Shown here in pieces: positions 21,536 to 62,581 of a DNA stretch of 64,000 nt (the stretch's first letter is position 1; each line of letters begins with the position of its first letter). The notes under the pieces were generated by a model that searched no databases, had not been told where the DNA came from, and saw only the letters and a program-made list of their open reading frames with translations. Source of the stretch: Petroclostridium xylanilyticum (GTDB lineage Bacteria; Bacillota; Clostridia; SK-Y3); assembly GCF_002252565.1 (NCBI RefSeq), contig NZ_NPML01000007.1:124001-188000 (forward strand), written 5' to 3'. A program made the position numbers and the translations under genes.

Positions 21536-23407
21536 TTATAGTAGCTTAGTAACCTCGTTAACAATGCTGTCCGAGTCCAATCCATATAATTTAAACAGTT
21601 CCTCTACCGACCCATGAGGTATAAACTGATCGGGAAATCCTTTTATTTTCACTTTGATATTATTATAACCGCTGTCATTTAATAACGCCAGAACAGCACT
21701 TCCCATTCCACCTATCACCGCATTATCCTCTAATGTTATTATTTTTCCGGTTTTGGCTGCAGAATGCAAAATCAGATTACTATCCAGCGGCTTAACACTT
21801 CTGGCATTTACTACTTCCGCATTTATTCCTATTTTTGCCATCTTTTCTGCAGCTTTTAAAGCAACCTCCACCATCTTACCAATGGCAATAATAGAAATAT
21901 CCCTGCCTTCCAGCAAAAGTTCACCTTTTCCAGGAAGTATCTGTTCCTGCTTAAATGGTATCGGATAATCTTCTCTTCCCCTGGGATACCTGATTGCAAT
22001 AGGTCCATGGTGAGAGGATACGGCATAGAGCAACATTTGCTGCAATTCTTTATAACATGAAGGGGCAAGGATTACCAAATTAGGAATATGACTTAAATAG
22101 GACAAATCGTATATACCCTGGTGGGTTTCACCGTCCTGTCCTACAATTCCAGCCCTATCGATTGCAAAGACCACGTGAAGATTTTGCAGTGCAACGTCAT
22201 GAAGTATCTGGTCATAAGCTCTTTGGAGAAAAGATGAATAAATAGCCACAACCGGCTTTAAGCCTGATGCCGCTAGTCCTGCAGCAAAGGTTACAGCATG
22301 CTGCTCCGCTATTCCAACATCAAAGAGCCTGTTTGGAAACTTCTCAGCAAACTTTCCCAAACCCGTCCCGATAGGCATAGCAGCAGTAATGGCAACTACA
22401 CTTTCATCCCGGGCTGCAATATCCGTTATTGTTTCACCAAATACTGCTGAATAATCCGGTTCTGTCTTAGCACTTATCGGTTTTCCGGTTTCTATATTAA
22501 ATGCAGATATTCCATGAAATATGTCCGGTTCTTCTTCAGCGAAAGAATAGCCTTTCCCTTTCGTTGTATAAACATGGATCAGGATGGGCCCCTTCATCTT
22601 TTTTGCTCGGTTAAAAACTCTTACAAGATTAGTAATATTATGCCCATCGATAGGGCCAATATATGTAAACCCTAATTCTTCAAAGAGCATACCAGGCATG
22701 ATCATATACTTTATACTTCCTTTAGCTCTTTGCACCGTCCTCGCCATACTTTTCCCTATGGCAGGTATTTTATTTAATATAAAATCAATATCCTCTTTCA
22801 CTTTAAAATAGACAGGTTCTGTTCTTATTCTGTTAAGATAGGTTGATAAACCTCCTACATTCTTTGTAATAGACATTTCATTATCATTAAGTATAACAAT
22901 TAAATTATTATTACTCCTCCCGGCATCATTTAATGCCTCAAACGCCATCCCTCCTGTAAGTGCTCCATCACCGATAACTGCTACTACAGAATATTTTTCA
23001 TTTTTTAAGTCCCTTGCCTTAGCCATGCCTAAAGCAGCAGAAATAGAAGTGCTGCTATGTCCTGTATTAAATATATCGTGTTCACTTTCATTCACTTTTG
23101 GGAATCCGCTTAAACCACCTAATTTTCTTAATGTCGCAAATTGTTCTTTTCTGCCTGTCAGTATTTTATGAATATACGTTTGATGCCCAACATCCCATAC
23201 GATCTTATCTTCAGGAGTAGAAAACACTTTATGAAGTGCAATGGTCAATTCAATAACCCCTAAGTTAGAAGCAAGGTGACCACCCGTTTTAGAAACAGTA
23301 TCAATTAAAAATTTTCTTATTTCATCCGTTAACAAGTTCAACTGTTCATAGTTAAGTTTTTTTAAATCTTTTGGTTGATTTATCGTATCTAGAATTTTCC
23401 CCATCAT
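21536..23407 (-). CDS. dxs: 1-deoxy-D-xylulose-5-phosphate synthase
   Basis: First enzyme of the MEP isoprenoid pathway, joining pyruvate and glyceraldehyde 3-phosphate. It has 623 residues with the transketolase-type TPP motif VIGDGALTGGMAFEALNDAG, the N-terminal GHQTYIHKILTGR, and a pyrimidine domain with GIAEQHAVTFAAG. The isoprenoid gene ispA lies in the same cluster. The product supplies isoprenoid precursors for quinone, undecaprenyl phosphate and tRNA modification. Confidence 0.97.
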   Translation of the reverse strand: MMGKILDTINQPKDLKKLNYEQLNLLTDEIRKFLIDTVSKTGGHLASNLGVIELTIALHKVFSTPEDKIVWDVGHQTYIHKILTGRKEQFATLRKLGGLSGFPKVNESEHDIFNTGHSSTSISAALGMAKARDLKNEKYSVVAVIGDGALTGGMAFEALNDAGRSNNNLIVILNDNEMSITKNVGGLSTYLNRIRTEPVYFKVKEDIDFILNKIPAIGKSMARTVQRAKGSIKYMIMPGMLFEELGFTYIGPIDGHNITNLVRVFNRAKKMKGPILIHVYTTKGKGYSFAEEEPDIFHGISAFNIETGKPISAKTEPDYSAVFGETITDIAARDESVVAITAAMPIGTGLGKFAEKFPNRLFDVGIAEQHAVTFAAGLAASGLKPVVAIYSSFLQRAYDQILHDVALQNLHVVFAIDRAGIVGQDGETHQGIYDLSYLSHIPNLVILAPSCYKELQQMLLYAVSSHHGPIAIRYPRGREDYPIPFKQEQILPGKGELLLEGRDISIIAIGKMVEVALKAAEKMAKIGINAEVVNARSVKPLDSNLILHSAAKTGKIITLEDNAVIGGMGSAVLALLNDSGYNNIKVKIKGFPDQFIPHGSVEELFKLYGLDSDSIVNEVTKLL

Positions 23408-23435: not shown

Positions 23436-24053
23436 TCAACGCTTTTTATTGCCTAGTGCCCCGCTCAAATAGTAGATTATAACACCCACTTTATAAACGA
23501 TGTAATTGCTTTTTGAAATGGCAATAGATTTTCCAATTGCCTTTCCTCCGACTGTTAAAGCCGCTACACTCCCCGTTAAAATCAATCCAATAAAAACCGT
23601 ATTTAAAGCACTGTATCGCTCTGTTAACTGGGCAACAATCGTGGCACTCGTTGCACCACTTATAATCCCGGCAATGTCCCCTACAACATCATTGCAAAAA
23701 TTAGATACTTTTTCCGCATTTCTGATAAGCTTTACAGCCTGCTTTGCACCCCCTATCCTTCTTGAAGCCATAGAATGAAAGGGAGTTTCACTTGCAGCAG
23801 TAACAGCAATGCCTATAATATCAAATAAAATTCCTAAAAATATTATTATTATCAATATTATAAATGCTATCCCTATACTGACGTTATTCATCAGACTGGA
23901 TGAAATAAAACTTAGTGTGATTGAAAAAATAAACGTCCATATTACAATAATAGCAGCCCATCTATAGTTAACTTTTTTATTCCCTGCATTTGTATTTCTG
24001 ATTTTTATTTTATTTGGCTTGTTGATTTTTTTTTCTGTATGCTGTTGATGCAA
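23436..24053 (-). CDS. oapA: OLE-associated membrane protein OapA
   Basis: A 205-residue membrane protein with a basic N-terminal tail (about 1-30), hydrophobic segments near 32-52 and 60-85, and further helices toward the C-terminus. Polar conserved-type stretches TPFHSMASRRIGGAKQAVK and NFCNDVVGDIAGIISGA lie between helices. Its place between OLE RNA and dxs is the published location of OapA, which binds OLE RNA at the membrane and has DUF21/CNNM-like character; OLE complexes have been linked to Mg2+ homeostasis and to cold and alcohol stress. Translation begins at TTG (24053), eight bases after GGGAGG. Confidence 0.88.
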   Translation of the reverse strand: MHQQHTEKKINKPNKIKIRNTNAGNKKVNYRWAAIIVIWTFIFSITLSFISSSLMNNVSIGIAFIILIIIIFLGILFDIIGIAVTAASETPFHSMASRRIGGAKQAVKLIRNAEKVSNFCNDVVGDIAGIISGATSATIVAQLTERYSALNTVFIGLILTGSVAALTVGGKAIGKSIAISKSNYIVYKVGVIIYYLSGALGNKKR

Positions 24054-24105
24054 AAGATTATCCTCCCGGTATTAGATGAAAACAGCTGTTAATGTCATTA
24101 TTATC

Positions 24106-24709
24106 CGGTGGTAATGCATAGAGTAAATTTTGCGGCTTAGGTCTAGTAGGCTTTCCCAGAAGGATACTGAAATGTCGCCAAATCAGTGGTTTCCCTTTAA
24201 ATCCTTCTCTACCCTGTTACCATGGGTAGGACTAGATTACCACTCAGTCCACACTGCAATCCCCTATGCACCTCTATCCGAACAGTCTAGGAGTTTTCCT
24301 CAACAGTCACACTGGTTCTTAGCCTCTTTTGCAAATATGGTTTCAAACAGCAATAACATATCTGTATTGGCCAATACAGGCATGTGTGATCCATTATCCA
24401 CCATATTCACTCAAGGCAGGCTACTCTGTTCACAGCACGCAAAAAGTACCGCATAACAGGTTTAATCCTAAGTCGTACTTTCTCCGGTATGTTAAGCAAT
24501 ACTCTGAAGCAAACCACGATCATAGGTCTCCACGGAAGAGGGGTCAACGCCCGCATGCCATTGCAGATCGCCCCTCAACCTTAACTCCCAGCACTAACCC
24601 CCGACTGGGCGTCGAAAGCTAACACAAGGAACTTCATCGATGTGCCCTTTAACGGATTTTTAGGCCCGTCTTAGGAACCAGTAGATCTGACTAGAATACT
24701 GCACCACCG
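24106..24709 (-). ncRNA. ole: OLE RNA (ornate, large, extremophilic RNA)
   Basis: A 604-nt gene-free region, visibly richer in G+C than its flanks, with many local inverted repeats such as TGTATTGGCCAATACA. Its 5' end CGGTGGT (24703-24709 on the minus strand) is complementary to its 3' end ACCACCG (24106-24112), closing the whole domain. Size agrees with the ~610-nt OLE class, and the gene order xseA, xseB, ispA, DUF212, RNA, oapA, dxs is the known OLE neighbourhood. Open frames on the opposite strand are not credible genes. I recognised the class by context and architecture, not by a covariance search. Confidence 0.9.
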
Positions 24710-24728
24710 TATTTCTTTCAAGACACAT

Positions 24729-24757
24729 ATCATAACATAAATATAAAATATTGTAAA
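24729..24757 (-). promoter_or_regulatory. sigma-A promoter directly upstream of OLE RNA
   Basis: TTTACA (24752-24757), 17 bases, TATGAT (24729-24734) on the minus strand. A start about 7 bases beyond the -10 (near 24722) lies just before the 5' terminal stem, so the RNA can be made independently of the long upstream operon. Confidence 0.65.
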
Positions 24758-24782
24758 GCAAAACGGTATAAATTAAGAAATG

Positions 24783-24930
24783 AGAATTGAGAATTGAAAA
24801 TAAATATTACATTATAAATGCTTTATTCTCTGTTATATAAATTAATACTTTAATTCTCTTTATTTTTTATCTTTGCCTTTGTCTTTATCTGTATTTTTAA
24901 TTGCCAATTTTCAATTCTCAATTTTCAATT
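24783..24930. repeat. GAATTGA heptamer-repeat pair
   Basis: GAATTGA units at 24783-24796, with the complementary arm TCAATTCTCAATTTTCAATTC at about 24910-24930, bracket roughly 100 AT-rich bases between the DUF212 gene and the OLE promoter. Confidence 0.75.
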
Positions 24931-24935
24931 CATAT

Positions 24936-25385
24936 TTATCTCGCTAATGCTATCGCCATTCCTAACAAAGCACCAACCAATACTTCAAAGGGTGTATGTC
25001 CAAGTAATTCCTTTAATTTATCTTCAACAAAATGAGGGTCATGTTTTCCCCATTGTTGGACAAGCTTATTTAAAATACGTGCCTGCTGGCCTGCTGCTCT
25101 ACGTACTCCGGAAGCATCATACATCACTACCATTGCCATAGCAAAAGTAATTGCAAATTCTACCGAATCCAGCCCGACTTTTTTCCCCACAGATGTTGCA
25201 AGGGAGACTACAAAGGCTGAATGGGAACTGGGCATCCCACCTGCACCTATAAATCTTGAAAAATCAATTTTCTTTTGTCCAATCAATACAAAAACAACTT
25301 TTAGAAATTGAGCGATAAACCATGCTATTACCGATGTCGTAATAATATCATTATTAAAAAACAAGAACTTGATGTTGTCCACCAT
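24936..25385 (-). CDS. divergent PAP2-family (DUF212) membrane protein
   Basis: A 149-residue protein of the DUF212/divergent PAP2 (vanadium-haloperoxidase-related) family. It has hydrophobic segments with the family's GGMPSSHSAFVVSLATSVG phosphatase-like signature and VMYDASGVRRAAGQQA. Members are predicted integral-membrane phosphatases or relatives. The ATG at 25385 follows GAGGGGGG. A longer in-frame start at 25433 would be encoded inside an inserted REP-like repeat and is rejected. The gene is a regular member of the ispA-OLE neighbourhood. Confidence 0.88.
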   Translation of the reverse strand: MVDNIKFLFFNNDIITTSVIAWFIAQFLKVVFVLIGQKKIDFSRFIGAGGMPSSHSAFVVSLATSVGKKVGLDSVEFAITFAMAMVVMYDASGVRRAAGQQARILNKLVQQWGKHDPHFVEDKLKELLGHTPFEVLVGALLGMAIALAR

Positions 25386-25397
25386 TATCCCCCCTCG

Positions 25398-25593
25398 TTT
25401 CATATTAACGCCCACGCCGGGCAAGCTCGGCACAAATAATGCTCAGGGCTTTGACATGGGGACGGTTCCTCAGTCGTATGAAAAGCGCATTCGACAGACG
25501 AACCGTCCCCAAGTCGCATCCCTTCTTCCTGCTAAACCGGACTTTTTCTGTGGTTTCGATTTTACTCCCCACTCCCCACTATTTTCATACTAT
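25398..25593 (-). repeat. REP-like element, copy 1 (between ispA and the DUF212 gene)
   Basis: About 195 bp, nearly identical to 33788-33986. On the minus strand it begins TATGAAAATAGTGGGGAG at the ispA stop codon. It has two GTGGGGA heptamers, a long hairpin closed by GGGGACGGTT / AACCGTCCCC (25501-25510 with 25458-25467) and a GCCGAGCTTGCCCGGC end. The closing stem resembles REP sequences mobilised by Y1 transposases. It fills almost the whole gap between the two genes. Confidence 0.85.
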
Positions 25594-40366: not shown

Positions 40367-40841
40367 CTAATTAATATTTATTTTTATTTCTGCTTCTTTA
40401 AACCATTGCTCTATTGTTTGCAGCATTACGGAATAGTTTTTGCTAAAATTCAACTCTTTCTTAATCTGCTCTTTTACTGAATCATAAGAATAATAATTTT
40501 TCTCTAGTACTTTTACAATGTAATAACCATATGATGTTTTAATTGGATTACTCACCTGATTTACTGATAATGAAAAAACAATGTCTTCAAATAATTTTTC
40601 CCTAGTACCACGCTTAAACTCATACATATAATCATTTTTGTCAGTAAGTTCCTCACAATAAGTACCTTTTAATTGATAAAAATCCTGCCCGCTTTTTGCT
40701 TTTTGTGAAACTTCTGCAGCCAATTTCACAGCCTCGGCATCAGTTCGCTTTAAGTTTGAAATATAAATATGGCTGATTGTTCTGTATTCATAATTATCAC
40801 GGTTGGAATTATAAAAATGCCTTATTTCCGTTATAAGAAAC
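40367..40841 (-). pseudogene. PpiC-type peptidyl-prolyl isomerase (PrsA/SurA-like), truncated by the IS element
   Basis: The frame codes for a parvulin domain (RTISHIYIS, AKSGQDFYQL, TSYGYYIVKVLEK) plus a C-terminal helix region. It has no signal peptide or N-terminal chaperone domain. Upstream it runs into the right end of the IS607 element at 40842. Joining it to the sequence on the far side of the element (below 42914) restores only a few in-frame codons before a stop. So the 5' part was deleted, perhaps with or after the insertion. It could still be translated from an ATG inside the element's end, but function is doubtful. Confidence 0.65.
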
Positions 40842-41010
40842 TTATAAAAAGTTATAAATTTTATAACTTTTATGTTCTTTTCCTTATTCATAGAGTCCGC
40901 TTTCGGAATTCTACTTGCGTTTGGTATGACTCTCCAAAGGCTTAAATTCCGATGTAACGACACCGTACATACCAACATAATTCGTTAAGTGAATTATGCT
41001 GATTTTCCAT
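40842..41010 (-). ncRNA. candidate TnpB guide RNA (omega/reRNA)
   Basis: The region from the tnpB 3' end to the right end of the element is non-coding and structured, for example GAATTTAAGCC and the pair AGAATTCCGAAAGCGGACTCT. In IS605/IS607 elements the right-end transcript folds into the TnpB guide RNA, and the first ~16 flanking bases beyond the end (about 40826-40841) act as the guide. Assigned by position and family knowledge; boundaries are approximate. Confidence 0.55.
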
Positions 41011-42208
41011 ATTTCATTAGATTTATAGCTGCATTTATATCTCTGTCATGCATTATTCCACATTCAGGACACACCCATTTTCTTGTTGATAAAGACATCT
41101 TATCTAAAATATATCCACATTCACTACATGTCTTGCTTGATGGATAATACCTGTCTGCTACTATAAACCTAATATGATTCCATTTACATTTATATTCCAT
41201 TATTCTACGAAACTCGCTAAACATTTGTTCTTGTACGGATTTTGCTAATTTATGGTTTTTAACCATACCTTTAATATTTAAATTTTCCATACACACAAAC
41301 TCTGGCTTGGCTTTCACCAGTTTAGCAGTTTCTTGATGTAAATAATTTGTACGAATGTCTTTTATTTTTTTATGGACTTTACGAATAAGGCACTCCAACT
41401 TAATAATGTTTTTAGTTTTCTTATAACGGTTTACACCTCCTTCTTTTTGTTTTTCATATTTTCTTGATAATTTACGTTGGAGTCTTTTTAATTTTTTATT
41501 TAATCTTCTTATTTCTTGACTCTTATTAATATTAGGTATTTTTCTACCATCATTAATTACTGCTAAATCTTTAACTCCTAAGTCAATGCCTATTCCATCT
41601 GAATACTTTTGGTTGTTGGTAGGTTTATAATCAATACTTACGGTTATAAACCAATTAAAACCATCAAATTTTATTCTTGGATTATAAAATTTTTCCGCTG
41701 TTTGTAATTCGATTCTATTTTCAGATAGTTTAATCCATCCTATCTTTTCAAGTTTTACTTTATCACCTTTAAATTTTAAATGTCCTAAATCTTCTCTGTG
41801 ATAAAACCCTTGTTGTACATCTTTTTTGCTTTTAAATTTTGGATGTCCTTCTAAATCATAAACTGTCAATTGTCTACCTTGTCTTAATGCTTTTTTCTTA
41901 GTTTTTTCAGAATAATGTTTATTTTCTATTCTGAAAAAGTTTTTATAAGCTATGCATAAATCCTTTATTGCTTGTTTTGGTATTTGTGCTGAAACTTCAT
42001 TTAACCAATTATATTCAGGATTTTTCTTTAGTTGTGTTAGTTCCTTTCTTAACTCTTCATCGTTTATAAACTTGCCACCGTTTTTAAAATTTTCTAATTG
42101 CTTAGATAAAGCCCAATTATAAGCCCATCGTGCTACATCTGCACATTTCTTTAATAAAGTCTTTTGTTTATTGTTAGGTAATAATTGTACTCTAATTGTC
42201 TTTATCAT
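40994..42208 (-). CDS. tnpB: TnpB RNA-guided endonuclease (IS607 type)
   Basis: A 404-residue TnpB, ancestor-type of Cas12. RuvC residues are intact: Asp209 in GIGIDLGVKD, Glu308 in VCMENLN and Asp390 in HDRDINAA. A zinc ribbon is formed by Cys361, 364, 380 and 383. The N-terminal wedge/REC region is full length. It overlaps tnpA by 17 bases. It should cut the excised-donor or target site under guidance of its right-end RNA. Confidence 0.93.
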   Translation of the reverse strand: MIKTIRVQLLPNNKQKTLLKKCADVARWAYNWALSKQLENFKNGGKFINDEELRKELTQLKKNPEYNWLNEVSAQIPKQAIKDLCIAYKNFFRIENKHYSEKTKKKALRQGRQLTVYDLEGHPKFKSKKDVQQGFYHREDLGHLKFKGDKVKLEKIGWIKLSENRIELQTAEKFYNPRIKFDGFNWFITVSIDYKPTNNQKYSDGIGIDLGVKDLAVINDGRKIPNINKSQEIRRLNKKLKRLQRKLSRKYEKQKEGGVNRYKKTKNIIKLECLIRKVHKKIKDIRTNYLHQETAKLVKAKPEFVCMENLNIKGMVKNHKLAKSVQEQMFSEFRRIMEYKCKWNHIRFIVADRYYPSSKTCSECGYILDKMSLSTRKWVCPECGIMHDRDINAAINLMKYGKSA

Positions 42209-42809
42209 CTTCGGTCAACTCCTCAATCATTTTACGTGCTTTGTTTGCTCTTTTACCTTGAAGTTTACAAGAAAATACAGTTATTATTTGCACTAAATCT
42301 TCAACAAGTTCTTGTTGTTCAGTTTTTTCTGTACTATCTATTACTTCAATTTCACATCCATACAGATTAGATATATATTCCACCAATTCAAAACCAAATC
42401 TTAACAATCTATCTTTATAAAGAACAACGACTTTTTCAACTTCATTGTTGACTATTTTTCTTAATAATGTTCTTAATCCTTTTTTAGTATAATTAATCCC
42501 ACTGCCTATATCTTCAATTATTTCATAATTTTTATTTTGTTTGTCTAAATATAATTTCATGTTTTCAACTTGTCGTTGTAAATCGTCTTTTTGTTTATAC
42601 GAAGATACTCGGCAATATCCTATAATAACTTTTGATTTTTTATCTTCTTTAATATTTAATACTTGTTTTAATTGATCATGCGAATAATATCTATATCCAT
42701 TAGCACCTGTATGATGTGGAATAAGTAATCCTTTTTTGTCCCAGTTTCTTAATGTTTGAGGAGTTTTTCCAACTAATTTAGAAAACTCATGTATAGTATA
42801 ATACTTCAC
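42192..42809 (-). CDS. tnpA: IS607-family serine recombinase TnpA
   Basis: A 205-residue transposase with an N-terminal MerR-like helix-turn-helix (TIHEFSKLVGKTPQTLRNWD) and a small serine-resolvase domain containing IGYCRVSSYKQKDDL with the catalytic serine. The GTG start at 42809 follows AGAGGTGGTTAAT; a GTG three codons earlier would lie on the ribosome binding site. Upstream, TTGACA followed by an AT-rich TATAGT region is the likely promoter. Confidence 0.93.
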   Translation of the reverse strand: MKYYTIHEFSKLVGKTPQTLRNWDKKGLLIPHHTGANGYRYYSHDQLKQVLNIKEDKKSKVIIGYCRVSSYKQKDDLQRQVENMKLYLDKQNKNYEIIEDIGSGINYTKKGLRTLLRKIVNNEVEKVVVLYKDRLLRFGFELVEYISNLYGCEIEVIDSTEKTEQQELVEDLVQIITVFSCKLQGKRANKARKMIEELTEDDKDN

Positions 42810-42914
42810 ATTAACCACCTCTAATTGTATTAGACTATACTAAATTATAAATGTCAACATTAATTTATGACTTTTTATAACTTTTTATTAACTGTTGTCA
42901 ACCTCCAAACATCA

Positions 42915-62404: not shown

Positions 62405-62581
62405 TTACTTAAACTTTCTCTTTCTTGCGGCTTCGGATTTCTTTTTACGTTTTACACTTGGCTTTTCATAGTGTTCTCTCTTTCTGATTTCAGATAAAAC
62501 ACCAGCTTTAGCACATTGACGTTTAAATCGGCGAAGTGCACTGTCTAATGACTCATTATCTTTTACTCTAATCTCTGACAT
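62405..62581 (-). CDS. rpsU: 30S ribosomal protein S21
   Basis: A 58-residue basic protein: [20 protein letters not shown], then [20 protein letters not shown] and an AARKRKFK end, diagnostic of bS21. It starts with ATG behind GGAGGGAGGG. The rpsU-yqeY pair is conserved in Firmicutes. Confidence 0.96.

Follow-up and report, generated by a model that had tools for sequence, protein, structure and literature searches.

A full-length OLE RNA closed by a terminal stem beside an oapA-like gene in Petroclostridium xylanilyticum

Between a DUF212 gene and an oapA-like gene of Petroclostridium xylanilyticum lies a block of DNA whose two ends are complementary to each other. The locus raises the question whether this block encodes an OLE RNA and whether its ends pair to close the molecule. 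Among bacterial RNAs of unknown biochemical function, OLE is one of the largest. The original prediction was made from the letters of a 64,000-nt stretch of contig NZ_NPML01000007.1 (the window, in whose numbering all positions are given); it held that positions 24106-24709 are a structured, G+C-richer and gene-free block, that this block belongs to the OLE class, and that a terminal stem encloses it.

The check named in advance, a search of the minus strand with the Rfam OLE model, returned a full-length, high-scoring match and settled the class assignment. With cmscan, positions 24092-24723 (-) aligned to positions 1-616 of the 616 of RF01071 with a score of 548.9 bits (cut-off, 50 bits) and an E value of 3.2e-158. 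The gene is given the extent of this match, the RNA proper running from about 24106 to 24722. The score is among the highest of all matches collected, and one OLE copy only was found in a search of the 3.86-Mb genome. The description of the block was borne out as well: its G+C content is about 0.44-0.46 vs 0.26-0.31 in AT-rich segments of the flanks, the folding energy of the OLE strand is better than that of 20 out of 20 dinucleotide shuffles (z = -4.9), and no sense-strand ORF of at least 60 aa occurs within it, the listed ORFs of 97 and 108 aa being on the opposite strand. The RNA is a complete, full-length and ordinary OLE member, and adds a new species to a known class. Among genomes drawn from the taxonomic class and from the phylum of the organism, OLE was found in 113 of 291 and in 217 of 299, respectively.

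The P. xylanilyticum locus shares its full-length match, its gene order and the adjoining oapA with the RF01071 type of OLE known from Halalkalibacterium halodurans and, through cryo-EM, from C. acetobutylicum and C. botulinum. The conserved loops and palindromes are likewise shared, and OapB, OapC and bS21 are encoded here too. Details of the J6/7-P8 region and of the P9.3 arm are specific to this copy, which is normal for the class, and nothing in them is class-breaking. The conserved nucleotides are also common to this RNA and OLE variants 1 and 2 of the TANB77 and RF39 clades, in which, by contrast, P7/P8 is shortened or absent and, in variant 1, the OapB site is often lacking (PMC11332333). 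As all 616 model positions were aligned, the copy is of the full-length kind and not a variant 1 or 2.

The genes around the RNA were found where the prediction had placed them, coordinates and Pfam matches agreeing that OLE lies between the DUF212 gene and the oapA-like gene, with dxs next. The same-strand order is nusB, a TsaD-like gene, xseA, xseB, a polyprenyl synthase gene, the DUF212 gene, OLE, the oapA-like gene, dxs, an FtsJ-type methyltransferase gene and an NAD kinase gene. The succession polyprenyl synthase-DUF212-OLE-oapA-dxs is the usual order for OLE, and the locus thus has the ispA/DUF212/dxs-type cluster with adjoining oapA that characterizes the class. Upstream, the DUF212 (divergent PAP2) gene occupies 24936-25433 (-) (PF02681, 172.7 bits); downstream, dxs occupies 21536-23407 (-) (PF13292, 432.3 bits). 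The oapA-like gene at 23436-24053 (-) begins 52 nt after the RNA with a TTG start codon, is preceded by the ribosome-binding site GGGAGG at 24062-24067 (-), and encodes a protein of 205 aa. This protein shares with the MpfA/CNNM transporters a weak CNNM match (21.6 bits), which falls below the Pfam cut-off; unlike them, it carries no CBS or CorC/HlyC domains. Weak CNNM similarity of OapA has been reported (PMC11332333). Its best named relative is from Petroclostridium sp. X23 (76% identity), and NCBIfam was found to hold no model naming OapA or DUF212 proteins. One locus (L111) was considered as a case of oapA without OLE and was rejected, OLE being found elsewhere in that MAG. In the MAG to which L111 and L215 belong, OLE adjoins murA on a different contig from the oapA relative found, and the OLE-oapA linkage appears to be broken there.

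The tight linkage elsewhere bears on the alternative that the conserved block is a long cis-regulatory leader of the oapA mRNA and not a free RNA. OLE precedes oapA by 52 nt on one strand, no terminator was found in the gap, and 79 of the 80 loci retrieved with the oapA-like protein contain an OLE RNA as well, all of which a leader would explain; it would not explain the L111 genome, with OLE beside murA and oapA on another contig. The class has moreover been published as an abundant, discrete RNA of a ribonucleoprotein (PMC12265935), and the mutual pairing of the ends suits a free molecule, so that a leader is very unlikely. The full-length OLE RNA almost certainly forms the core of a stress-response particle bound to the membrane, as in the published account of a dimeric OLE RNA that is held at the membrane by OapA and other proteins and serves stress tolerance (PMC12265935, PMC12286853, PMC10898510, PMC9723947).

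The ends of the block, CGGUGGU at 24703-24709 (-) and ACCACCG at 24106-24112 (-), were predicted to be exactly complementary, and on the minus strand they are. An additional inner G-U pair joins 24702 to 24113, and the outer ends of the helix are 604 nt apart. Since a 7-bp match alone is weak evidence, the helix, here called P1, was followed through its relatives. A total of 208 OLE loci were collected, 207 of which hold an OLE RNA, and 150 RNAs were aligned after near-duplicates had been dropped. In this alignment, the P1 columns are almost free of gaps. Standard pairs fill 95.1% of the cells of the six inner pairs vs 84.1% in shuffled columns and 31-82% in slid registers, and two-sided changes were observed in 117 cells of these inner pairs vs 33.7 in shuffles. 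The covariation signal persists when the helix is lengthened outward by four pairs. The 5' sequence GUGGU, for instance, is replaced elsewhere by AUGGU, AAGAU, AGGUU, ACGGU or CUGAU, and the 3' strand changes accordingly.

Because the relatedness of the sequences inflates such cell counts, the changes were also counted by parsimony over eight P1 pairs on a tree inferred from interior columns only. On this tree, 133 pair-to-pair changes were two-sided and 62 one-sided, 83 further changes led into or out of an unpaired state, and slid registers gave 4-22 two-sided changes vs the 133 of P1. That the terminal complementarity is incidental to a conserved unpaired sequence, for instance a protein site, would fit a stem that is in part highly conserved, with one G-C pair unchanged in all 150 RNAs, and an Rfam consensus in which the ends are unpaired, but this is refuted by the many two-sided compensatory changes, which leave it a negligible chance. 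Given the strength of compensatory change in 150 relatives, P1 is not a chance match, and the claim that a real stem closes the region stands. P1 is a class-wide helix and not peculiar to the P. xylanilyticum copy; the closing helix of domain 2 that belongs to OLE RNAs is present here by covariation and by the tree. Published models name P1 and P2 (PMC12265935), and, judging from this naming, the closing stem is very probably the published P1 and not a discovery.

Two further helices obtained from the covariation alignment connect P1 to the rest of the molecule. The 5' strand of P2, CAGU-auu-CUAG at 24691-24701 (-), abuts P1 directly and pairs with CUAGACUG at 24283-24290 (-). In this helix (CAGU-CUAG with CUAG-ACUG), 100% of the cells are paired among the 150 RNAs, three pairs show compensatory change, and the palindrome CUAG of the 5' strand is invariant (150 of 150). 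P3 forms the base of domain 1: its 5' strand ACUGGUUC at 24675-24682 (-) pairs with GAACCAGU at 24311-24318 (-), with 87% of the cells paired and compensatory change in all eight of its eight pairs (n=150). P3 is the helix proposed to span the membrane, and domain 2 is made up of P1, P2 and P10-P15 (PMC12265935). The RF01071 consensus leaves P2 and P3, like the ends that form P1, unpaired. Folded alone at minimum energy, the sequence retains P1 but mispairs parts of P2 and P3, and the helix model is therefore based on covariation. To our knowledge, domain 2 has not been resolved by cryo-EM. P1, P2 and P3, each with covariation support, are firm constraints on this domain, closed as it is by the terminal stem, and they are three helices that the public Rfam OLE model lacks.

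The RNA also appears to have a start of its own. A promoter-like site, TTTACA and TATGAT separated by 17 nt and with a TG-extended -10, lies at 24729-24757 (-) and predicts a transcript start at about 24720-24722, 11-13 nt ahead of P1. In a survey of the 159 loci with enough upstream sequence, a -10 element starting 12-32 nt before P1 was sought together with a paired -35. Such a sigma-70-like hexamer pair was present in 111 of the 159 loci, the P. xylanilyticum one among them, vs 17.0 +/- 3.8 in dinucleotide shuffles, and at a stricter threshold in 78 loci vs 3.0. At a fixed position the -10 element is only weakly visible, as P1 is of variable length on its outer side; the 20-nt range and the paired -35 bring out a clear signal. 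This enrichment, a simple statement of how OLE RNA begins, suggests that in most species OLE probably has its own promoter and starts its own transcript. The gap between OLE and oapA showed no intrinsic terminator, so the 3' end of OLE may come from processing of a longer transcript. The H. halodurans cluster has been reported as one polycistronic RNA (PMC12265935), and operon read-through alongside an own promoter may be compatible with the promoter data. On balance, we lean slightly towards an OLE transcript that in most species is started independently, begins with the P1 5' strand and whose ends are clamped by an outwardly variable P1. If so, the end-closed OLE would be a unit apart from the operon mRNA and more than a piece cut from it. 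Neither the class-wide counts for P1-P3 nor the promoter result was found stated in the literature searched, outside which lay the first reports on OLE, from 2006, 2011 and 2020; both are of interest to OLE specialists and will not surprise them.

The genome also encodes the known protein partners. An OapB relative of 96 aa is encoded between map and infA and matches the solved OapB structure 7k9b (1.5e-15); a search of the genome with the KOW family gave L24 and NusG only, and OapB was found afterwards by its position. An OapC/YbxF relative of 82 aa, encoded between rpoC and rpsL, matches YbxF (3v7e/4lck) at 1.6e-15. The gene of bS21, a reported OLE partner, is rpsU at 62411-62581 (-) (PF01165), 38 kb from OLE, and the sharing of one window by the two is probably coincidence. 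As the genes for OapA, OapB, OapC and bS21 were all found, the genome encodes every component known to be required in H. halodurans. Besides OapA, it contains one CNNM protein, full-length, that exceeds the cut-off, which agrees with the report that MpfA is scarce among OLE carriers (PMC11332333). The idea that OLE is a decayed copy here found no support and can practically be dismissed in view of a score among the highest, a full-length match, a single copy and the presence of all partner genes.

Several candidate sites for these partners and for dimer formation can be pointed to in the RNA. OapA sites have been mapped to palindromic stretches within or close to P2 and P4a (PMC12265935), and two palindromes that fit them, CUAG and AUCGAU, are present. 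AUCGAU, at 24636-24641 (-) in what we infer to be the P4a region, is probably the second of the two palindromic OapA-binding sites. The J4a/5 region, which in the class carries the k-turn bound by OapC, is present and aligned to RF01071. The candidate dimer contact loops are an A-rich P4 loop, CUAAAAAUCC, and the L9.3 loop UUGGCCAA at 24368-24375 (-), with a self-complementary GGCC that in the OLE dimer forms kissing-loop bridge B3 (PMC12286853). With this GGCC in place, the sequence is compatible with the published account of a dimer at the membrane.

Taken together with published work, the locus suggests the following course of events. Transcription would begin near 24720-24722 at the promoter directly upstream, and the 5' end would pair with the 3' end about 600 nt later to form P1. 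P2, abutting P1, would enclose domain 1 (P3 to P9), and the stretch between P2 and the P1 3' strand would supply the rest of domain 2. As in the published particle, domain 1 would dimerize through contacts between loops, the GGCC of L9.3 among them, and OapA from the adjoining gene would anchor the RNA at the membrane through the sites near P2 and P4a. OapC would bind the k-turn and OapB would bind P13, while bS21 may dock. The resulting particle would aid tolerance of alcohol, cold, Mg2+ and poor carbon sources.

Other elements were observed in the window. Between the DUF212 gene and the OLE promoter, within 24767-24934, is an imperfect inverted repeat of 45 nt, GAGAATTGAGAATTGAAAAT. A 36-nt inverted repeat, GGGGACGGTTC / GAACCGTCCCC, within 25445-25523 and between the polyprenyl synthase and DUF212 genes, is probably a dispersed palindromic repeat. 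An IS607-type element with a TnpB and a MerR-resolvase TnpA (40994-42208 (-) and 42192-42818 (-)) is accompanied by a RAGATH-18 RNA at 40880-40940 (-), 54 nt downstream of the TnpB gene and one of 10 copies in the genome. The arrangement is already explained, as RAGATH-18-derived RNAs are reported to guide IS607 TnpB nucleases (PMC11061315). At its RAGATH-18 end, the IS607 element is overlapped by the ORF of a PPIC-type peptidyl-prolyl isomerase at 40367-40978 (-), and the element may have interrupted a longer gene.
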